DNA of 64,000 nucleotides from an uncultured Rhizobiaceae bacterium (GTDB lineage Bacteria > Pseudomonadota > Alphaproteobacteria > Rhizobiales > Rhizobiaceae), in the NCBI GenBank assembly GCA_951813045.1, contig CATOTF010000001.1:186001-250000 (forward strand), in the 5' to 3' direction. The position numbers and the translations under genes are program-made. How positions within the stretch are numbered: position 1 is the stretch's first letter; the number at the start of each line of letters is the position of its first letter. Below are positions 35,360-49,751 of the stretch, piece after piece. The notes beneath the pieces are model-generated. The model ran no database searches. It was not told where the DNA came from and was given only the letters and a program-made list of their open reading frames with translations.

Positions 35360-38149
35360 ATGGCCAAGGGGAAAATATTGCCGGAAAAGGACACATTTGA
35401 GGCTGCCAACAGGCCCTTGGATAATAATCTCTTGCGCTATGTATGGCGGCATACAAAAGCCGAACAGATTTGGATTCTGTTCGTCATTATTGCCTCAATG
35501 CCCACCTATTTTCTCGTGCTCGACCTTCCAGTTCGGATCATCAACGAACCTATTCAGGGTGAAGGATTTGAGGAAGCGGACGCCACACGACAATTCATGG
35601 ACCTCACCCTGTCCGTGCCGGATTGGCTGGGTGGGTTTTCACTGGAAATATTTGCCGGATTCGAATTGTCGAGATGGCCATATCTGATAGCTCTTTCAAG
35701 CTGGTTCCTCGTTCTTGTGTGTATTAACGGGCTCTTCAAGTTCTACATCAACACTTATAAAGGGCGGCTCGGTGAGCGCATGTTGCGTCGCATGCGTTAT
35801 CAGTTGGCCGACCGTGTATTGCGGTTCCCCATTCATCATTTCAAAAGGGTGAAGGGCTCCGAAGTTGCCTCTATGGTCAAGGATGAAGTGGAGCCCTTTG
35901 GCGAATTTATCGGCGATGCGTTTGTACAACCGGTTTATCTCGGCGGCCAGGCGCTTGTGGCGTTCGTGTTTATCCTTAACCAAAGCTTTTGGCTTGGCAT
36001 GATTGCGGTCGCGATCATCGCTGTTCAAGTCACGCTTATTCCCCACTTGCGCAAGCGCGTATTGGTGCTTGGACGCATGCGCCAGTTAACAGCCAGGCTT
36101 TTGTCCGGTCGAATTGGGGAGATTGTCGACGGGATAACCGCAGTTCATGTCAACGACACGTCGAATTATGAAAGGGCTGAGCTATCCAGCCGCCTCGGAA
36201 AAATATTTTTTATCCGTTATGAACTTTACCAAAGAAAGTTCTTCATCAAGTTTTTGAACAACTTTCTGGCGCAACTGACACCCTTTTTGTTTTATGTTGT
36301 GGGCGGGTATTTTGCCATTCGCGGTACACTTAATGTTGGGCAATTGCTGGGGGTCATCAATGCTTATAAAGATCTGCCTACCCCGATTAATGGTTTGATT
36401 TTATGGGATCAAAAACGGGTCGATATCAACATCAAGTACGCGCAGATTGTTGAACAATTCAACATCAAAGGAATGAGTGACGCCGAAATGCAGGCGCCCA
36501 GCACTGAGCCGGTGCCACCCATTACCGGAGACATCACCGTCAGCAATCTCAACGTGGTTGATGAGAGCGGTTCAACACTCGTTGAAGATGCTGATTTCAC
36601 ATTGCCGATCAATGGCATTACCGCGGCGATTGGCCCACTTGGTTCCGGTGCAGGGGCCATGGCGAATACTCTGGCTGGACTACAGGAGCCGACATCGGGG
36701 CGTATAAAACTGAACGACTCGCAGCTTGCTGATCTGCCACAATCAATACGCGGTCGACGTTTTGGTTATGCAGGTAGTGAATCTTATCTTCCCCAATCCA
36801 CCATCATCAACACACTGTTGTATGTGAACAAACACGCCCCGCTCGTCACCCTCGACCCGAACGAGTTGGGGGTAAATATTCATCCTAAAACGGAGACGGA
36901 AGCAAAAGCGTCTGGCAATACACTTCTCGATTATTATGCGGACTGGGTCGATTATGACGCGATGGGAATCTCTGGCCCAGAAGGTGTATATTCGAAAGTT
37001 CGCGACGCGCTTGAGTTGGTGGAATTGGACGAAACGATTTATGAACTGGCCATGCGTCAGATGTTAAGCCCCAAGGAAACACCGGAGCTTTGCCAGACGC
37101 TGATCGATATTCGCCAGGAATTTCACCAGCGAATTGACGGTTCCCCTCTTTCAGAAATGGTCGAGATTTGGGATCGCACCACCTATAATGAACATGCGAC
37201 AATTGCGGAAAACCTGCTGTTTGGTACCGTTGAAGAAGATGCGGATTTCACCGCTGATCACCTGTTGGATAATGATCATCTGCGTACAGTTCTTCAATCT
37301 ACCAAACTGGATCGTGATATGTTCGATATGGGGGTTGAACTGGCTGAGACTGCGATTGAATTATTTGCCGATTTGTCGCCAGACAACCCATTTTTTGAGC
37401 AGCTGAACTTCATGACACCGGAACAGCTTGAAGAATACCCACCGATTTTGGGTCGGGCGAAGCAGCTTGGTTTTGACGGTGTTGATGAAACTGACCGCCG
37501 CATGCTGTTACAATTACCCTTTGGCTATGTGGAACGCCGTAACCGGCTTCGTCTGTTGGATGAGGAATTACAGGAGCGAATTTTACAGGCGCGAAAAGTA
37601 TTCCATGATACGCTCCCCCAGACCATGCAGGGGCAAATCAGCGAGTATGATTTAAATTCTTATAACCCGCTTAATGCAGTCCGTGACAATATTCTGTTTG
37701 GAAAAATTGCTTACGGCCTGTCCAACGCCACTGAAGAGGTTCAGGAGACAATTCGAGAATTGTTAATCGAAAAAGGATTGGAAGATGACATCTTCAATGT
37801 CGGATTACAATTTGATATTGGTACAGGTGGCAAGCGTCTATCGGAAAATCAGCGCCAGCGCCTCATTGTTGCAAGAGTGCTTACCAAAGGAAGTGACATG
37901 GTTATCTTTAACCGTGCAATTAACACGCTTGATGCACGTTCACAGGAACGGATAATCAGCAAGGTTCTTGAACGGGCAAGAGGTAAAAACGGATCAAAAC
38001 CTTTTGGGTTATTATGGGTGCTGACGACACCCAGTCTGGCTGAGAAATTTGATGAAGTTATGGTTTTTGATCGACAGCGACTCTCGCAAATGGGATCACC
38101 GGATATACTTAAAAACGAAAATTCAACATACGTCGCTTTAGTAGCGTAA
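35360..38149 (+). CDS. Degenerate ABC-exporter-like membrane protein with expanded nucleotide domain
   Basis: A 929-residue protein. The N-terminal third is an ABC exporter transmembrane domain (hydrophobic segments and LRRMRYQLADRVLRFPIHHF before an intracellular helix). The nucleotide domain has lost its chemistry: Walker A is GPLGSGAGAM (from 425, Lys replaced by Ala431), the Walker B acidic pair is Asn851-Arg852 (MVIFNRA), the switch His region is LTTPS and the signature is LSENQ (827-831). Walker A and signature lie about 400 residues apart rather than 100, and a motif like TIAENLLFG recurs at about 481, 615 and 774. It is unlikely to hydrolyse ATP. Start uncertain; a GTG at 35294 is possible. 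First gene of the cyclic-nucleotide cluster. Confidence 0.8.
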   Translation: MAKGKILPEKDTFEAANRPLDNNLLRYVWRHTKAEQIWILFVIIASMPTYFLVLDLPVRIINEPIQGEGFEEADATRQFMDLTLSVPDWLGGFSLEIFAGFELSRWPYLIALSSWFLVLVCINGLFKFYINTYKGRLGERMLRRMRYQLADRVLRFPIHHFKRVKGSEVASMVKDEVEPFGEFIGDAFVQPVYLGGQALVAFVFILNQSFWLGMIAVAIIAVQVTLIPHLRKRVLVLGRMRQLTARLLSGRIGEIVDGITAVHVNDTSNYERAELSSRLGKIFFIRYELYQRKFFIKFLNNFLAQLTPFLFYVVGGYFAIRGTLNVGQLLGVINAYKDLPTPINGLILWDQKRVDINIKYAQIVEQFNIKGMSDAEMQAPSTEPVPPITGDITVSNLNVVDESGSTLVEDADFTLPINGITAAIGPLGSGAGAMANTLAGLQEPTSGRIKLNDSQLADLPQSIRGRRFGYAGSESYLPQSTIINTLLYVNKHAPLVTLDPNELGVNIHPKTETEAKASGNTLLDYYADWVDYDAMGISGPEGVYSKVRDALELVELDETIYELAMRQMLSPKETPELCQTLIDIRQEFHQRIDGSPLSEMVEIWDRTTYNEHATIAENLLFGTVEEDADFTADHLLDNDHLRTVLQSTKLDRDMFDMGVELAETAIELFADLSPDNPFFEQLNFMTPEQLEEYPPILGRAKQLGFDGVDETDRRMLLQLPFGYVERRNRLRLLDEELQERILQARKVFHDTLPQTMQGQISEYDLNSYNPLNAVRDNILFGKIAYGLSNATEEVQETIRELLIEKGLEDDIFNVGLQFDIGTGGKRLSENQRQRLIVARVLTKGSDMVIFNRAINTLDARSQERIISKVLERARGKNGSKPFGLLWVLTTPSLAEKFDEVMVFDRQRLSQMGSPDILKNENSTYVALVA

Positions 38150-38185
38150 ATGTTTACCTGAAAATCAGGGACAAGGAGAAAACAG

Positions 38186-38662
38186 ATGAGCAAATTGAAG
38201 GATGAAGTTGATCTATTGCGATCAATTCCTATGCTCGCAAATATGCCGGCCAACAAGCTTAAGCTTCTCGCCTTCGCTTCGGACCGTGTTTCATATCCAG
38301 AGGGTGCGATGCTATTTGAACAGGGCGACGAGGCGGATGCCGCATATATTGTCATCAGCGGTAGTGCAGACGTTCTTGTATCCAGCGATGGAGAAGCAAA
38401 ACCCAACAAAGTTGCAGAACTCGGCCCCAATTCATTTGTCGGAGATATGGCAATATTATGCGATATCCCGCGAACCGCTGGTATTCAGGCAAATTCTCAG
38501 TTGGATACCCTGCGCATCCGTAAGGAACACATGATGGATATGGTCAAGGAGAGCCCGACCCTTGCCATGGCGGTGTTACGGGAACTCGTTCAGCGGCTGG
38601 CTAAAACCACTCAGGATCTCTCCCAGGCGCGTGAAGAGGTTTCCAGCTTAAAGGCCTCATAA
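38186..38662 (+). CDS. Cyclic nucleotide-binding domain protein
   Basis: A 158-residue protein consisting of one cNMP-binding (Crp/PKA regulatory) domain with no DNA-binding helix-turn-helix. The phosphate-binding cassette reads FVGDMAILCDIPRTAGIQAN: Arg of PRTA is kept, and Asp replaces the usual Glu of FGE. The C-terminal helix (VQRLAKTTQDLSQAREEVS) may be a coiled coil. It would act as a cAMP/cGMP-responsive subunit for another protein, plausibly the degenerate ABC protein encoded 36 bases upstream. The partner is inferred from position only. Confidence 0.88.
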   Translation: MSKLKDEVDLLRSIPMLANMPANKLKLLAFASDRVSYPEGAMLFEQGDEADAAYIVISGSADVLVSSDGEAKPNKVAELGPNSFVGDMAILCDIPRTAGIQANSQLDTLRIRKEHMMDMVKESPTLAMAVLRELVQRLAKTTQDLSQAREEVSSLKAS

Positions 38663-38734
38663 TGAATATACTTCGTTTTTCTCCAACGAACGGACCATCG
38701 TTGAAACCTCTTTCACCAAGTATCGGCTCAAACA

Positions 38735-39592
38735 ATGACTGAAATTCCATTCTCCGTTAAAATCTGGGGGGCACGGGGAACGTTGGCCTCGCAAAGTAAA
38801 GAGACCATCGGGTACGGCGAAAATACCGCATGCGTTGAGGTGTTTTGTGGAGATGAGAGTATTATTTTTGACGCCGGTACCGGCCTTCGCAGTGTCGGTG
38901 ACAAGATTATCAAAGATATCATCAAAGGTGACAAGGCGGGAAAGAAACGTAAGAAGATCAATCTGTTTTTCACCCATTGCCATTACGACCACATTTCCGG
39001 ACTTCCGTTTTTTGCTCCATTTTACGACCCTAATACGGAAGTTGATATTTGGTCAGGGCATTTGACGGGGCCGGATAAAACTCGAAAAATGGTCGTAGAC
39101 TATATGTCTTCCCCGTTTTTCCCGGTGGGGCCTGAGGTATTTTCCGCAAAAATTACGTATAAGGATTTTGAACCGCGGGATGTTTTGCGCCCGCTCAAAG
39201 GTATCACAATACGGACCTGTTCTCTCAATCACCACGATGAATGTGTCGGTTATCGCATCGAATTTGATAACCGTTCAATTTGCTACATCACCGATACAAC
39301 CCATATTGTCGATCAACCGGACGAAGGATTGATCGAGTTCATCCATGACAGCGATCTGATGATTTATGATGGCACGTATACCGATGCTGAGTTTCCTCAA
39401 TTTTGGAACTTTGGCCATTCTACATGGGAAGAGGGCGTTCGCTTAGCAAAAGCCGCCGGCGTTAAAAGATATTGTATTTTTCACCATCGACCAAGCCGCG
39501 ATGACAAGTCGCTGGATGCTATTGGCAAGGCCTGCAAGAAAGAATTCGCGCGCTCCTATGTTGCCCGTGAAGGTATGAAAATTAAGGTCTGA
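38735..39592 (+). CDS. Metallo-beta-lactamase-fold hydrolase
   Basis: A 285-residue MBL-fold enzyme with an intact dinuclear metal site: THCHYDHISGLPFF (His81, His83, Asp85, His86), a His in SLNHHDECVGYR (166/167), Asp187 in YITDTTH and a His in CIFHHRPSRDD. The arrangement is that of phosphodiesterase/phosphorylcholine-type MBL proteins with a GARGT start similar to PhnP-like members. Since it lies between a cNMP-binding gene and two cyclase genes, hydrolysis of cyclic nucleotides (class II phosphodiesterases also use HxHxDH) is an attractive but untested role. Confidence 0.85.
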   Translation: MTEIPFSVKIWGARGTLASQSKETIGYGENTACVEVFCGDESIIFDAGTGLRSVGDKIIKDIIKGDKAGKKRKKINLFFTHCHYDHISGLPFFAPFYDPNTEVDIWSGHLTGPDKTRKMVVDYMSSPFFPVGPEVFSAKITYKDFEPRDVLRPLKGITIRTCSLNHHDECVGYRIEFDNRSICYITDTTHIVDQPDEGLIEFIHDSDLMIYDGTYTDAEFPQFWNFGHSTWEEGVRLAKAAGVKRYCIFHHRPSRDDKSLDAIGKACKKEFARSYVAREGMKIKV

Positions 39593-39681
39593 TGCTCGGT
39601 TATTCTGCGCGAGTAATGCCTGGTATTGCGGGCTTTCGAAATTGCAATCAGACAATCAATTAGGCGTACATCATTCAAAAT

Positions 39682-41040
39682 GTGAGCAAACAGAACCCCA
39701 ACTATGAAATGGCCAACCGATTAAAAGGGGCTGTTGACAGTGTATGGCGGCGACCGGATTGGAAAAATCTGCCGGCCAGGGTTCAAAATACAATTTTAAA
39801 GATAGACGACAGCAGCGAGATTCTGGTCAAGCTGATCCAATTATTCGTCTTTGCAATTTGGGGTATCGCTTATTTCGCAGCCCCTCAACCCGACCCTGAC
39901 ACGGTTTCGCGGGTGCCCGTCGTCATCACTATCTACTTGATATTCACATTTGTGATGCTTTTGATTGCCCTATCAAGACGCACACCGGTCTGGCTTATCT
40001 ACGCGTCGATATTCATAGACATGGCGTTACTGACCTATCTGATATGGAGCTTCCATATCCAGTACAATCAACCCGCTTCCTTTTCTTTAAAGGTGGTGGA
40101 GGTGATGAACTATTTTGTGCTTATTGGTTTGCGTGCCCTTCGGTTTGAAGCCCGATATGTGCTTGCTGCAGGTCTTACCGCGGTGCTCGGCTGGGCTGCG
40201 CTTGTGACATATGTGGTCAGTATCGACCCGGATGATCCGATGATTACACGCGATTATGTCACCTATATCACGAGCAATTCAGTTCTTATCGGAGCGGAAA
40301 TCAGTAAGATGATGTCAATGGTGATGTTTACCGCAATCCTCGCCATTGCTGTGCGACGAGGTCATCATTTTCTTGCAACTTCGATTACGGAAGGCAGCGC
40401 GGCAAATGAACTATCCCGTTTCATGTCATCCTCCGTTGCCAGCCAGATTCGGGATTCAGAACAGACAATCCAGGCGGGCCAGGGGGAACGCAAAGAGGTT
40501 GCCATTCTCAATGTCGACATTAGGGGGTTCACCAAGCTCGTTGCCGATATGGATCCCGGTCAAGCAATGCAACTATTGTCGGATTATCAGCACCGCATCG
40601 TTCCGGTCGTCCATCAACATGGTGGCACCATTGACAAATTTATGGGTGACGGCGTGATGATTACTTTTGGCACAACGTCAAATGAACACAGTGCCTGTGC
40701 TGATGCGATGCGATGTATCGATGATCTGTTGGCACAGCAATCCGCGTGGACAGGGCCTTCTGCACCACTCAATATCAATATGGCTGTAACAGCCGGACCT
40801 GTTATATTTGGTGCAGTGGGCGATGGCGACAGGCTGGAAGTTACGGTGATCGGTGCCAGCGTAAATTTCTCCGCCAAGTTGGAAAAACATAACAAGATAC
40901 TGAAAACAAAAGCACTGAGCGGCGAATATTTTTTCAAAAAAGCCGTCGAACAGGGCTATCAGAATATTGCCAACCGTAAAATGGTAACAACACAATTGGA
41001 AGAACAGGACACGTCTACAAACGTGGTTATATTAGCATGA
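39682..41040 (+). CDS. Six-TM class III adenylate/guanylate cyclase
   Basis: A 452-residue membrane cyclase. About six hydrophobic segments span residues 50-225, followed by a catalytic domain: the metal-binding Asp279 (LNVDIRGFT) and Asp323 (KFMGDGVMITFG) are present, and EVTVIGASVNFSAKLEK carries the transition-state Asn/Arg-region. It should make cAMP (or cGMP) at the inner membrane face. The start is GTG at 39682, with an in-frame ATG at 39709 as alternative. It overlaps the next cyclase gene by four bases (ATGA), so the two cyclases are translationally coupled. No known sensor domain was recognised in the membrane part. Confidence 0.87.
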   Translation: MSKQNPNYEMANRLKGAVDSVWRRPDWKNLPARVQNTILKIDDSSEILVKLIQLFVFAIWGIAYFAAPQPDPDTVSRVPVVITIYLIFTFVMLLIALSRRTPVWLIYASIFIDMALLTYLIWSFHIQYNQPASFSLKVVEVMNYFVLIGLRALRFEARYVLAAGLTAVLGWAALVTYVVSIDPDDPMITRDYVTYITSNSVLIGAEISKMMSMVMFTAILAIAVRRGHHFLATSITEGSAANELSRFMSSSVASQIRDSEQTIQAGQGERKEVAILNVDIRGFTKLVADMDPGQAMQLLSDYQHRIVPVVHQHGGTIDKFMGDGVMITFGTTSNEHSACADAMRCIDDLLAQQSAWTGPSAPLNINMAVTAGPVIFGAVGDGDRLEVTVIGASVNFSAKLEKHNKILKTKALSGEYFFKKAVEQGYQNIANRKMVTTQLEEQDTSTNVVILA

Positions 41041-42797
41041 ATATTCCAAACCCGATCGAGCTCATCAACAGATTGAAAAGCGAGGACGGCTGGTTTAGCA
41101 AGGCAAACCAGAGTAACCTGAGAATTGTTTCGGGGATGGTTCTTTTTGGCTATGTAACCATCCATTTCATGAACCATTCGCTGGGCTTGATTTCGCGTGA
41201 AGCCATGTCAGCCGTTGGTGGATGGGTTCACTGGTTCATCGCATTCTGGCCGATTTCGATTATTCTTTATGGTGCGATTGCCGTGCATGTGGGCCTGGCA
41301 ATTCTTCGCATTTTTCAGCGCAAAACGCTGCGGTTTCCGGCGAAGGAATGGGTGCAATTATTACTCGGATTTGCCCTGCCGATATTCATAATCGGCCACG
41401 TTATGAATACGCGATACGCCAATGCAGTTTACGATGTTAACGCTTCATACGATTACATTCTTCTATCCACATTCTATTTCAGTCCATTTTCAGCGTATAT
41501 GGATACAGCCGGCCTGCTGGCAGCATGGCTTCACGGGTGCCTTGGGCTACACATGTGGTTTCAGGCTCAGCCAATGTATCGGGTTAAGAAAAAAGTTCGC
41601 TTAGCTCTTGCAACTGTGCTTGTGCCTGTGCTGGCACTGACCGGGTTTCTTTCCGGCGGGCGCAGTATCCTGCCCCTCGCCGAAGACGGCGAGTTCATGG
41701 GTCCCTATTACGAAGCGCTTAACGTTGCTGATGATGCCATCTGGGACATGCTGGGGTCGGACACACAATACGCCCGTCTCATACTATTCAGCGTTATCGG
41801 ATTAGCGATTATTGCGCGTATTGCCATGGTGGTATTTTCGCCAAAAACCGACAAAGTGACAATTGATTATATTGACGGGCCAAAAGTTACCCAATCGTGT
41901 GGTGCCACTTTGCTTGAGATCAGCAAACTCTCAGATGTGCCCCATGCCAGTGTGTGCGGTGGGAAAGGACGTTGTTCCACCTGCCGCGTTCGTATTTTCG
42001 GGGATATCACATCCCTTGAGGCGCCAAGTGAGGCGGAATGCAAGGTATTAACCCGGATCAAGGCGGGTGATGATATCCGACTGGCCTGCCAGTTGGTTCC
42101 GTCTACCGATCTGAAAGTAATGCGTCTTTTGCCCAGTGACGGCGCGCCGCCTAAATTGGCAGATCTCGCACCTGCAGCCAGTGGACGGGAGAAAGTTGTG
42201 ACCATTATGTTTGCCGATATCCGCGATTTTACAAGAATATCAGAATCCCGCCTGCCGTTTGATGTCGTTTATCTGATCAACCAGTTCTCCAAAGTGATGG
42301 GGGACGTGGTGAAACAAAATAAAGGTACAGTCGACAAATTCCTGGGTGACGGTTTTATGGCCCTGTTTGGCGTCGATGGTTCCCCGGAAAAAGGTGCTCT
42401 TAATGCTATTAAGGCTGCTGATATCATGACCACCGAACTTCAAAAACTCAATGAAAAACTCGCCATAGATCTGGACGAGCCACTTCTCATGGGTATCGGA
42501 ATTCACACAGGCTCGGTAATTCTTGGTAATATGGGTTATGGTGCTTCACGCGGCCTCACTGCCATTGGCGATACGGTCAATACCGCCAGCCGCCTTGAAA
42601 CGGAAACCAAAATTCAAAAGGCACGAATATGCATATCGGACGATTCCGTTAAGATTGCCGGACTGGTGGGCAACGCCGACGACCGAGTACGTGTGTCAAT
42701 CCGCGGTAAAAAGATTGAACTTGATGTATATGCTCTAGATAATACAAATGAGTTGATGGCGGCGGGAAAAACACTGGAAAAAGCCGGAGAGATTTAA
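41037..42797 (+). CDS. cyaC: CyaC-type redox adenylate cyclase: diheme membrane anchor, 2Fe-2S domain, class III cyclase
   Basis: A 586-residue protein in three parts. Residues 30-210 are a membrane anchor with several His in helices (His43/47, 84, 121, 166/172) like the diheme-b subunit of succinate:quinone oxidoreductase. Residues 273-366 are a plant-type ferredoxin with Cys307, 313, 316 and 351 (SVCGGKGRCSTCR). Residues 385-575 are a class III cyclase with Asp394 (FADIRDFT) and Asp438 (FLGDGFMALFG). This matches CyaC of Sinorhizobium meliloti, whose quinone-responsive haems and iron-sulfur cluster control cAMP formation. Here it should couple quinone redox state to cAMP level. Confidence 0.88.
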   Translation: MNIPNPIELINRLKSEDGWFSKANQSNLRIVSGMVLFGYVTIHFMNHSLGLISREAMSAVGGWVHWFIAFWPISIILYGAIAVHVGLAILRIFQRKTLRFPAKEWVQLLLGFALPIFIIGHVMNTRYANAVYDVNASYDYILLSTFYFSPFSAYMDTAGLLAAWLHGCLGLHMWFQAQPMYRVKKKVRLALATVLVPVLALTGFLSGGRSILPLAEDGEFMGPYYEALNVADDAIWDMLGSDTQYARLILFSVIGLAIIARIAMVVFSPKTDKVTIDYIDGPKVTQSCGATLLEISKLSDVPHASVCGGKGRCSTCRVRIFGDITSLEAPSEAECKVLTRIKAGDDIRLACQLVPSTDLKVMRLLPSDGAPPKLADLAPAASGREKVVTIMFADIRDFTRISESRLPFDVVYLINQFSKVMGDVVKQNKGTVDKFLGDGFMALFGVDGSPEKGALNAIKAADIMTTELQKLNEKLAIDLDEPLLMGIGIHTGSVILGNMGYGASRGLTAIGDTVNTASRLETETKIQKARICISDDSVKIAGLVGNADDRVRVSIRGKKIELDVYALDNTNELMAAGKTLEKAGEI

Positions 42798-43501
42798 TGT
42801 TATTTAAAAATTGCTGCTTTTATGCGTTCGCCTTCTTAAGCGCCGGTATTGGATATACACTGTTTGCACCCCAGGCCTTGGCGGGTTGCAGCGACTATCC
42901 CGAACCCGGTGTCGATTGGTCATCCTGCCGGAAACGCAATGTCATTTTAACCGGTAGCGATCTATCCAATGCGGTTCTTGAAAAGGTCAACCTGACGGGT
43001 TCGGACCTTCGGGATTCAAAACTGGTTAAAGCCGATTTGAACAAAGCCCTGATGCAAAGGGTGAATATCTCAAACTCTGATCTTTCGGGAGCCAACCTGA
43101 GTAAAGTGGAAGCTAGCCGGTCAAAATATCTGAATTCAAATCTGGAGGGCGCAACTTTTTTGAAAGCGGAAATGTTCCGCGCTGATTTTAGCGGTGCGAA
43201 CCTTAAAAATACCGATTTGAACAAGGCCGAAATGGGGAGAGCCAAGTTTACCGAGGCAGAATTATCCGGCGCAATGATTACGTTTACCAATCTCGCTCGG
43301 GCGGATTTTACCGGAGCAACTTTGATCGACACGGACCTGCGCTCGTCCTATACCTACCAAACAAACTTCAATGGTGTTGACCTCAGCAAGGTGAAAAATC
43401 TGAGCCAGACTCAGCTGGATTTAGCCTGCGGGAACGAAGATACAAAACTTCCCGATGGCCTTACAAAATCGGCTAATTGGCCGTGCGAGGACGATGGTTG
43501 A
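42797..43501 (+). CDS. Secreted pentapeptide-repeat protein
   Basis: A 234-residue protein with an N-terminal signal peptide (hydrophobic residues 6-30, ending PQALA-GC) and about 25 pentapeptide units of A(D/N)LXX type from about residue 55 to 200 (for example SDLSGANLSKVEA, ANLKNTDLNKAEM), predicting a right-handed quadrilateral beta-helix. The start overlaps the last base of the cyaC stop, so it belongs to the same operon. Such proteins act as scaffolds or inhibitors; location in the periplasm beside a membrane cyclase pair suggests an envelope partner. Function unknown. Confidence 0.8.
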   Translation: MLFKNCCFYAFAFLSAGIGYTLFAPQALAGCSDYPEPGVDWSSCRKRNVILTGSDLSNAVLEKVNLTGSDLRDSKLVKADLNKALMQRVNISNSDLSGANLSKVEASRSKYLNSNLEGATFLKAEMFRADFSGANLKNTDLNKAEMGRAKFTEAELSGAMITFTNLARADFTGATLIDTDLRSSYTYQTNFNGVDLSKVKNLSQTQLDLACGNEDTKLPDGLTKSANWPCEDDG

Positions 43502-47930: not shown

Positions 47931-49751
47931 TTAGCGTCCATGCCATCCTGAAAGTCGCAACCCTTCCAAAAACCTGTCCATGTGCTCTTTATGGGTGAAC
48001 GGGTGACCGTATTTCAAAACTTCGAGCGGGTAGTTGGGTATCTGGCGGCGGCCTTCCGCCATAGCCTGGTATGCGGCATCCTTGTTCCCGGCCAATACCT
48101 CGCAGACAGCAACAAATGCGTGGTGAAAAAACCAGTCCGGACGTTTTGCTGCCGCCTCTGAAGCAAAACCGGCTGCCTTTTTATAATCGCCGTCAATAAA
48201 TGCCGCAATGCCAAGACTACGTACAAAAAGGCTTATGTGGGGGTCACTGGGACTCAGTTCTATCGCCTTCAGAACCACCCTGCGCGCTTCTTCGGCTTTG
48301 CCGCTAAAGGCAAGGAGCCTTCCATATTCACCTAACGCACCAGCACAATTCGGGTTCAGTTCGAGCGCCCGGCGTTCGGCCGCAATGGCCGGTCCGATCT
48401 TACCAACCAGCGACAGGGCCGTCCCCAGAGTAAAATGGGCATCATGGTTCATTTCATCCAGATTGACGGCCTGATTGGCAAACCTCAGGGCTTCTTTTAG
48501 CTGAAACGCACTGTCGGTTGAAAGGCCGGTCCACACTTGTGTCATGTGGCAAAACGAAAGCAGCGCCATGGTCTGCGCGCTGTCTGGTTCCAGCTGCAGT
48601 GCTTTTTCCGCATTGCCCAACGCCAGTTTGATGTGAGGAGCTGTGCCGCGCCAGAAATGCCACCGCGCCCGCATCAAAAGATCCCACGCATTCACATCAC
48701 GCGGACGGTTATTCGCTGCCCTTTCAGATTCGTGACGCAGAAATTCAGGCTCAATCTTGGCAACTATGAGGTCGGTAATTTCATCCTGAATATCAAAAAT
48801 TGACATTTCACGACGGTCGTAGCTCTCAGACCACACGGTGTGTCCTGTTTCGCAATCTATTAACGAGGCCGATATTCGAACTGTTTCACCGGCTTCGCGA
48901 ATGAGACCTTTCAGTAAATACCGGACCCCAAGTTCCCGCGCGATATCGTTGTTTTGATAGGTTGCATCGGAATAGTTCATCGAAGATCGGGGCGAAATGA
49001 CCTTTAGCCAGTTCGATCTGGAAAGTCCGTTGGCAATGTCACTCGCCATCCCGAGCGCCAGATATTCATCATCCTCTTTAACAAGGCTGTTGTTGGGCGG
49101 CACTTCAAACGGTAGCACCGCTACGCCACGGGCGTTGGCCACCCAATCATCAGTGGATTCCACTTTATATTCAGCAGCTAATGCAGACGATGCCTCGAAA
49201 CGGCCCTCGTCATCGTGATGGAGCAAGCGCCAAATCCGTACCGGGTTGGAAATGCCCTTGAGAATACGAAACTTGAGGTCAACGAAAGAGAATGAATCCA
49301 GCTCCTCAACCTGTTTTCGGGCTTCGCCATCTACATTGGTAGCCCCTGGTTCGGCTAACTGCTGCAATCGCGCTGCTATGTTGACGGTGGTGCCCGAGAT
49401 CAGATGCTCTTCCTGAAGAACTTTTCCGTAGGCAACACCGCAACGAAATTTCATGCGGCGATCGATTGGGTAATCTGAATTTTGATCGTCAACCTGATCG
49501 TGGAATTCCGAAACACAGTGCAGGGCAGGTGCAACATTTGAAAACTCTGCAAACAAGCCGTCGCCAGCCTTATCAATCACACGCCCACCGGATCGGATGA
49601 TCCTTTCCTCCAGTTCGGTAAACAGGGAAGACAGGCGTTGCCGGGTTTTTAGTGTAGATGTCTCAATACTTGAGGAGTAACCGACGGCATCCAGGAAAAC
49701 AGCGCAACTGTTTTTCCAATAATATGTATCAGCCTGCCTCTCTTCACTCAC
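47931..49751 (-). CDS. Class III adenylate cyclase with TolB-like and TPR domains
   Basis: A 606-residue soluble protein. The cyclase domain spans about residues 10-170, with Asp21 (FLDAVGYSS) and Asp64 (KAGDGLFAEF) and GTTVNIAARLQ. A TolB-like segment follows (about 205-330; VAVLPFEV, LLKGLIREAG, SASLIDCETG), and TPR repeats fill 370-580. The combination is frequent in Alphaproteobacteria, where many copies exist per genome. It should convert ATP to cAMP in the cytoplasm, with the C-terminal region as a protein-binding part. It is a third cyclase within 12 kb but lies outside the 35-43 kb operon. Confidence 0.87.
   Translation of the reverse strand: MSEERQADTYYWKNSCAVFLDAVGYSSSIETSTLKTRQRLSSLFTELEERIIRSGGRVIDKAGDGLFAEFSNVAPALHCVSEFHDQVDDQNSDYPIDRRMKFRCGVAYGKVLQEEHLISGTTVNIAARLQQLAEPGATNVDGEARKQVEELDSFSFVDLKFRILKGISNPVRIWRLLHHDDEGRFEASSALAAEYKVESTDDWVANARGVAVLPFEVPPNNSLVKEDDEYLALGMASDIANGLSRSNWLKVISPRSSMNYSDATYQNNDIARELGVRYLLKGLIREAGETVRISASLIDCETGHTVWSESYDRREMSIFDIQDEITDLIVAKIEPEFLRHESERAANNRPRDVNAWDLLMRARWHFWRGTAPHIKLALGNAEKALQLEPDSAQTMALLSFCHMTQVWTGLSTDSAFQLKEALRFANQAVNLDEMNHDAHFTLGTALSLVGKIGPAIAAERRALELNPNCAGALGEYGRLLAFSGKAEEARRVVLKAIELSPSDPHISLFVRSLGIAAFIDGDYKKAAGFASEAAAKRPDWFFHHAFVAVCEVLAGNKDAAYQAMAEGRRQIPNYPLEVLKYGHPFTHKEHMDRFLEGLRLSGWHGR

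Follow-up and report, generated by a model that had tools for sequence, protein, structure and literature searches.

A putative cyclic-nucleotide-binding subunit of an ATP-site-degenerate ABC protein and its association with glycosyltransferase genes

In a 64,000-nucleotide stretch of DNA from an uncultured Rhizobiaceae bacterium (GenBank assembly GCA_951813045.1, contig CATOTF010000001.1, positions 186,001 to 250,000; hereafter the window), an initial annotation had proposed that six co-oriented genes form one membrane signalling module for cyclic nucleotides. Our present analysis places the core of the system, as judged from gene order and fusion, in the first two of these genes, which encode an ABC protein with a degenerate ATP site (pseudo-ABC) and a stand-alone cyclic nucleotide monophosphate (cNMP)-binding protein (CNB). 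Of the partners tested across the class, a glycosyltransferase cluster, which the initial annotation missed, is the one most strongly associated with the pseudo-ABC. We tentatively read the locus as a control unit by which cyclic nucleotides would act on an envelope-glycan system. The genome comprises two contigs, of 4.45 Mb and 0.39 Mb, and the window is part of the shorter one.

The pseudo-ABC and CNB genes

The two core genes, with domains called by Pfam search of the open reading frames (ORFs) of the window at E 0.01, are the following (window positions; lengths in amino acids, aa):

35360..38149, + strand: pseudo-ABC, 929 aa, with an exporter-like membrane domain and a split, ATP-site-degenerate nucleotide-binding domain (ABC_membrane 6.7e-14; ABC_tran 1.6e-9, covering the first half of the ABC_tran model only)
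38186..38662, + strand: CNB, stand-alone cyclic-nucleotide-binding protein, 158 aa (cNMP_binding 2.5e-18)

The family search covered 61 genomes, including the window's own, and the pseudo-ABC was present in 33 of them; wide flanks were analysed for 30 of the 32 relatives carrying it (11 same-genus loci and 19 others), the same-genus copies in genomes G007 and G010 being outside this set. A second sample, the class draw, comprised 289 genomes taken evenly from the class, with thresholds of E 1e-60 for the pseudo-ABC and E 1e-70 for the glycosyltransferase GT4, and 60 class loci were picked for closer analysis, 59 from this draw and one from a phylum draw. The pseudo-ABC occurs in 98 of the 289 class genomes (E 1e-60) and in 25 of 299 genomes drawn from the phylum, all 25 belonging to the same class or closer. 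A collection of named genomes contains at least 559 confirmed relatives; the best 80 of these are mostly members of Hyphomicrobiales or Alphaproteobacteria, with one gammaproteobacterium, Plasticicumulans lactativorans.

The CNB gene directly follows the pseudo-ABC gene, on the same strand, in all 30 relatives' loci. Across the 60 class loci it adjoins the pseudo-ABC gene in 46 and is fused to its C-terminal end in a single frame in seven, and the fusion is also present on two Ruegeria replicons. This fusion is the best sequence evidence for joint work of the two proteins, and there is little doubt in our minds that the pseudo-ABC and CNB would act together. The pocket residues of the CNB protein are kept: in an alignment of 89 sequences (those of the window, of 30 relatives and of the 58 loci from the class and from plasmids that gave a clear match), the phosphate-binding Arg is found in all 89 and the Glu/Asp in 87. 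Among proteins of solved structure, it is closest in sequence to a TGME49 multi-CNB protein and to PKA regulatory subunits.

The Walker and CNB-pocket residues are discussed here by their generally known roles. As initially annotated, the ABC protein of the window is degenerate: its Walker A reads GPLGSGAG, with the Lys gone, its Walker B reads VIFNRA, with neither Asp nor Glu, and around 290 additional residues interrupt its nucleotide-binding domain. Two more Q-loop-like stretches were seen by eye. Over the window and its 30 relatives, the Walker A Lys and the Walker B Glu are each found in 0 of 31 sequences, and the Walker B Asp position holds Asn in 28 and Asp in three; in alignment A4 (41 sequences, mainly Rhizobiales), Asn occupies this position in 41 of 41, and the Glu position holds Arg, Gln or Lys. 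None of the 31 has the intact Walker A and Walker B of an active MsbA/P-gp-type exporter, and the pseudo-ABC of the window's lineage is, by its sequence, without the residues for normal ATP use. The AlphaFold model of the pseudo-ABC (pLDDT 80.6, pTM 0.73) matches P-gp, TmrAB, Atm1-type and MsbA structures with a Foldseek probability of 1.00, as for an exporter membrane fold, the best TM-score by target length being about 0.6. Many residues of the membrane domain are invariant over the 41 aligned sequences.

An association between CNB loss and an intact ATP site was considered and dropped, exceptions occurring both ways among the class loci: of those without CNB, L208 has Asp-Glu, L214 and L215 have GK[ST], and L244 and L256 have neither, and GK[ST] and Asp-Glu are both present in L257 (CNB present) and L252 (CNB fused). 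Homologues consisting of the membrane domain only (about 400-430 aa) also exist (L151:5779-7083, L153:5785-6984, and L254 of genome G167), and such homologues on Phaeobacter and Thalassospira plasmids are surrounded by copper-related and c-type cytochrome genes. The pseudo-ABC of genome G270 is split into two ORFs (L272:1359-3374), from a broken gene or a sequencing error.

Glycosyltransferases, hydrolase and cyclase across the class

Single-linkage clustering of the ORFs of 95 loci recovered a glycosyltransferase group in 59. In the examples analysed the cluster is mostly divergent from the pseudo-ABC gene; that of L229 encodes four glycosyltransferases, two GT28-type and two group-1, along with a histidine phosphatase. 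Both GT4 and the pseudo-ABC are present in 91 of the 289 class genomes, the pseudo-ABC only in seven, GT4 only in two and neither in 189, giving concordant presence in 280 (Fisher p 7e-64; this and the p values below ignore shared ancestry). Of the 91 genomes that have both, 67 carry them no more than 8 kb apart. Four of the pseudo-ABC-only genomes (G229, G326, G287 and G315) belong to families each having another genome with both, and the match in a fifth (G343) is merely partial (all by eye). In the window's own genome these GT4 and GT28 genes lie at C2:3617.5-3622.3 kb and share 56 and 51 percent identity with a class member. We consider it quite probable that the pseudo-ABC and CNB belong with the glycosyltransferase cluster.

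In Rhizobium johnstonii 3841, three glycosyltransferase genes lie directly 5' of the pseudo-ABC/CNB pair. One of these may, to go by gene number, be pRL110056, which is reported as an O-antigen enzyme required for root colonisation (PMC11103875). Beside the glycosyltransferase cluster of the window's genome (L264, G000:C2:3611000-3629000) are ORFs that by eye resemble a nucleotide-sugar dehydrogenase, a polysaccharide flippase and a GGDEF-EAL protein.

The four remaining genes of the window cluster are the following:

38735..39592, + strand: metallo-beta-lactamase-fold hydrolase (MBL), 285 aa, with a THCHYDH metal motif (Lactamase_B_2 4.2e-20)
39682..41040, + strand: membrane class III cyclase CYA1, the first cyclase, 452 aa, GTG start (Guanylate_cyc 4.2e-10)
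41037..42797, + strand: CyaC-type class III cyclase, 586 aa, with membrane, 2Fe-2S ferredoxin and cyclase domains (Guanylate_cyc 1.2e-22, Fer2 1.3e-5)
42797..43501, + strand: pentapeptide-repeat protein, 234 aa (Pentapeptide 1.2e-31)

All six ORFs were found on the + strand where the initial annotation had placed them, their Pfam matches agree with the domain content it gave, and both overlaps are as it described, the two cyclase genes overlapping as ATGA (41037-41040) and the CyaC and pentapeptide genes sharing one base (42797). With 19 PF00211 matches in the 4.84 Mb of the whole genome, the tandem cyclase pair here is not expected from position alone.

CYA1 is present in 55 of the 289 class genomes. 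At least 33 of these have it within 2.5 kb downstream of a co-oriented MBL gene; from these gene orders MBL and CYA1 make up a second old pair. Both CYA1 and the pseudo-ABC are found in 47 class genomes, the pseudo-ABC only in 51, CYA1 only in eight and neither in 183 (p 1e-18), and the corresponding numbers for MBL are 89, nine, 47 and 144 (p 9e-29). The tie to the pseudo-ABC is looser for MBL than for GT4, and the MBL family doubles as a comparison. Among the 30 relatives' loci the MBL gene lies downstream of the pseudo-ABC on the same strand in 25, and 31 of 60 genomes compared have an MBL gene no more than 50 kb from the pseudo-ABC, mostly at 13-21 kb. Loci L277 and L279 lead from a glycosyltransferase cluster through a peptide-importer cluster, presumably yej-like, and reach CYA1 together with an ORF resembling response regulators; in L277 an MBL gene intervenes between them. 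In L278 MBL and CYA1 stand at the far end, L280 shows CYA1 and a methyltransferase but no labelled MBL, and no importer is labelled in L272 and L273, where MBL and CYA1 are close to the pseudo-ABC and CNB genes. The window, to judge by these arrangements, packs together two pairs that in some relatives bound a glycan supercluster.

The initial annotation had suggested that the MBL protein might remove cyclic AMP (cAMP), and this possibility finds support. The [TS]HxHxDH motif, as in atypical class-II phosphodiesterases, is present in 26 of 26 sequences, the phosphodiesterase profile NF041851 is matched at 2.5e-8 (33.6 bits; 1.6e-12 and 47.4 bits for the MBL of class member L277), and the predicted structure (pLDDT 94.1) has a fold nearest RNase Z and YhfI. 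By motif, weak profile match and fold, the protein is a possible cyclic-nucleotide hydrolase. It shares PF12706, the motif and kinship to RNase Z with the atypical class-II phosphodiesterases Rv1339, YhfI and CpdA, as described in PMC9293780, but differs from them in that its match to the phosphodiesterase model is weak.

CyaC, the pentapeptide protein and known systems

The residues of the class III catalytic set have well-known roles, and in CyaC the whole set (the metal Asp pair, the substrate Lys and Thr, and the transition-state Asn and Arg) is present in 16 of 16 sequences. Four Cys of 2Fe-2S type, together with H43, H47, H84, H121 and H166 in the membrane part, are invariant in 7 of 7, the His bearing on a possible di-heme 6TM membrane domain of the S. 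meliloti CyaC type. Hydrophobic stretches in the cyclases and a signal-peptide-like N terminus on the pentapeptide protein were recognized by eye.

The order pseudo-ABC, CNB, MBL, CYA1, CyaC, pentapeptide was found in all but one of the 11 same-genus loci with wide flanks, hence in 10 (L048 has it with the pseudo-ABC clipped by a contig end). The exception is L047, whose CyaC gene is around 7 kb upstream on the opposite strand. The pentapeptide gene is in the cluster in all 11 of these loci and in none of the 19 others. The cyclases of those 19 vary, with a CYA1 type after MBL in L054, a CyaC type upstream in L052, L053 and L057 and downstream in L058, and, in the rest, other cyclase matches in some and none in others. 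In the collection of named genomes, L077 and L078 have the pseudo-ABC, CNB, MBL and two cyclases, and no pentapeptide gene, and L075 of Ahrensia sp. R2A130 shows the same order as the window. An ancient origin of all six genes as one operon was rejected, the full order being confined to the same genus among the 30 relatives' loci, and the CyaC and pentapeptide genes, initially included in the module, are mostly local additions. Another class III cyclase, the third here and one with a long tail, is encoded at 47931-49751 on the opposite strand, around 4.4 kb past the six-gene cluster.

In the open-licence literature, no paper was found on the gene composition of the locus and, among the papers listed, none on a pseudo-ABC/CNB combination, although HetC of Nostoc PCC 7120 turned up. 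In the HetC study (PMC10986499), a CNB domain likewise works with an ABC exporter and is needed for function. HetC carries a C39 peptidase and an N-terminal fused CNB, and its ATPase is essential, whereas the window protein has a degenerate ATP site and the CNB of its family is separate or C-terminal; no C39 peptidase match was found in the window pseudo-ABC (Pfam, E 0.01). The CyaC of Sinorhizobium meliloti (PMC10463352) resembles the CyaC-type protein of the window in domain type, with a succinate-dehydrogenase-type membrane domain and class III cyclase, and the window protein adds a 2Fe-2S ferredoxin domain. The partners reported there for S. meliloti CyaC are transcription regulators.

The context of the pseudo-ABC is also like that of the S. 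meliloti MsbA2 (SMb21191) operon, in which, according to PMC3687685 and PMC12239276, an ABC exporter accompanies glycosyltransferases for an unknown polysaccharide, and removal of MsbA2 is harmful only with the glycosyltransferase genes intact. Identity of the two was rejected by map position: the S. meliloti homologue of the window pseudo-ABC lies within 841.5-845.1 kb of pSymB, and SMb21188 of the MsbA2 operon at about 938.3 kb. The pseudo-ABC gene of S. meliloti may, to go by gene number, be SMb20813, which is called an msbA homologue in PMC10945364.

A possible control unit and its alternatives

From gene order, fusion, co-occurrence, residue conservation and predicted folds, we infer the ligand, the MBL activity, the CNB effect and the glycan cargo as follows. 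CyaC, and perhaps CYA1 too, would make cAMP or a related cyclic nucleotide, and MBL would probably hydrolyse it, leaving a local pool. The nucleotide would bind the CNB protein, which, as a dedicated subunit, would switch the pseudo-ABC, and the pseudo-ABC would export, flip or gate the product of the co-inherited glycosyltransferase cluster. That MBL and the cyclases feed or drain the CNB ligand is a part of this scheme we slightly favour, and gated export or flipping of a glycan as the effect is one we put forward with reserve. A broader history, in which an ABC exporter lost its ATP site and gained a CNB subunit to become, across Alphaproteobacteria, a surface-glycan flippase or channel gated by cyclic nucleotides, supplied in lineages like the window's by its own membrane cyclases and phosphodiesterase, seems to us rather unlikely as a whole.

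Several observations weigh against the control-unit reading. In the window's own genome the glycosyltransferase cluster is on the other contig, unlinked to the pseudo-ABC, and in 24 of the 91 class genomes with both, GT4 and the pseudo-ABC are not within 8 kb of each other. No CNB was found near the pseudo-ABC in seven of the 60 class loci (L208, L214, L215, L244, L253, L254 and L256), of which L214 ends shortly past the gene and L253 and L254 hold homologues that are partial or consist of the membrane domain only; for most of the 60, neither MBL nor a cyclase was found in the stretch analysed around the pseudo-ABC. MBL and CYA1 occur in 47 and eight genomes, respectively, that have no pseudo-ABC. 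The NF041851 score of the window MBL is far under the curated cut-off of 400 and ribonuclease Z models outscore the phosphodiesterase model; the protein may be an RNase or other hydrolase. The transition-state Arg of CYA1 is replaced in 14 of 14 sequences (Lys in 12, Asn in two), the remaining catalytic residues being kept; such cyclases, with Lys or rarely Asn, possibly form a distinct subfamily. Finally, 39 of 58 class members keep the Walker A Lys, mostly with Glu or Asp next, four have GK[ST], and two have GK[ST] plus Asp-Glu, so some family members may still bind ATP.

This last point is also what would be expected if the pseudo-ABC were an ATP-using exporter in disguise, pairing with another ABC half or keeping a residual site, with a CNB that reads a ligand other than cAMP, such as guanosine tetraphosphate (ppGpp); in the HetC study the CNB domain bound ppGpp, not cAMP (PMC10986499). 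The complete absence of the Walker A Lys from the 31 sequences of the window's branch, the cyclic-nucleotide-pocket Arg and Glu/Asp retained by the CNB protein, and the cyclases that often adjoin the pseudo-ABC in this branch speak against such an exporter, which we regard as improbable. Somewhat less improbable, though still unlikely, is a scaffold, in which the pseudo-ABC moves nothing and anchors glycosyltransferases or their lipid-linked product, a nucleotide on CNB toggling the assembly. The lost ATP site in the window's branch, the closeness of the glycosyltransferases as partners and the extra residues within the nucleotide-binding domain would suit a scaffold, but the strongly conserved membrane domain fits a working translocation path, and the model matches exporters.

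The two pairs could also be unrelated units with separate roles, brought together in this genus by historical chance. Each pair is found without the other (L281 and L282, for example, carry MBL and CYA1 in genomes where the pseudo-ABC had no match at E 1e-60), and of the 47 genomes with both the pseudo-ABC and CYA1, 27 have them apart, four at a distance along a single contig and 23 on separate contigs, counts that draft assemblies blur. The scattering in related genomes that the initial annotation named as evidence against its module is partly seen. The co-occurrence of CYA1 and the pseudo-ABC in 47 of 289 genomes, at distances of 1.6-19.3 kb in 20 of the 47, and the nearness of MBL to the pseudo-ABC in about half of the genomes compared (31 of 60) argue against chance, and we think this explanation as improbable as the disguised exporter. 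What survives of the single system first proposed is the pseudo-ABC/CNB core and the MBL/CYA1 pair, with a core and limits different from those claimed; the conserved synteny it called for is strong within each pair (30 of 30, and 46 plus seven of 60, for the first; at least 33 of 55 for the second) and weaker between the pairs (20 of 47).

S. meliloti has 28 adenylate cyclases, and the route of cAMP to its separate targets is called unclear in PMC10463352. If the control-unit reading is true, a class-wide receptor subunit of a membrane protein, co-occurring with glycosyltransferases, would be a direct, non-transcriptional route of cAMP to the cell envelope. The association of the pseudo-ABC, CNB and glycan genes thus suggests a previously undescribed control of the cell surface by cAMP-type signals.

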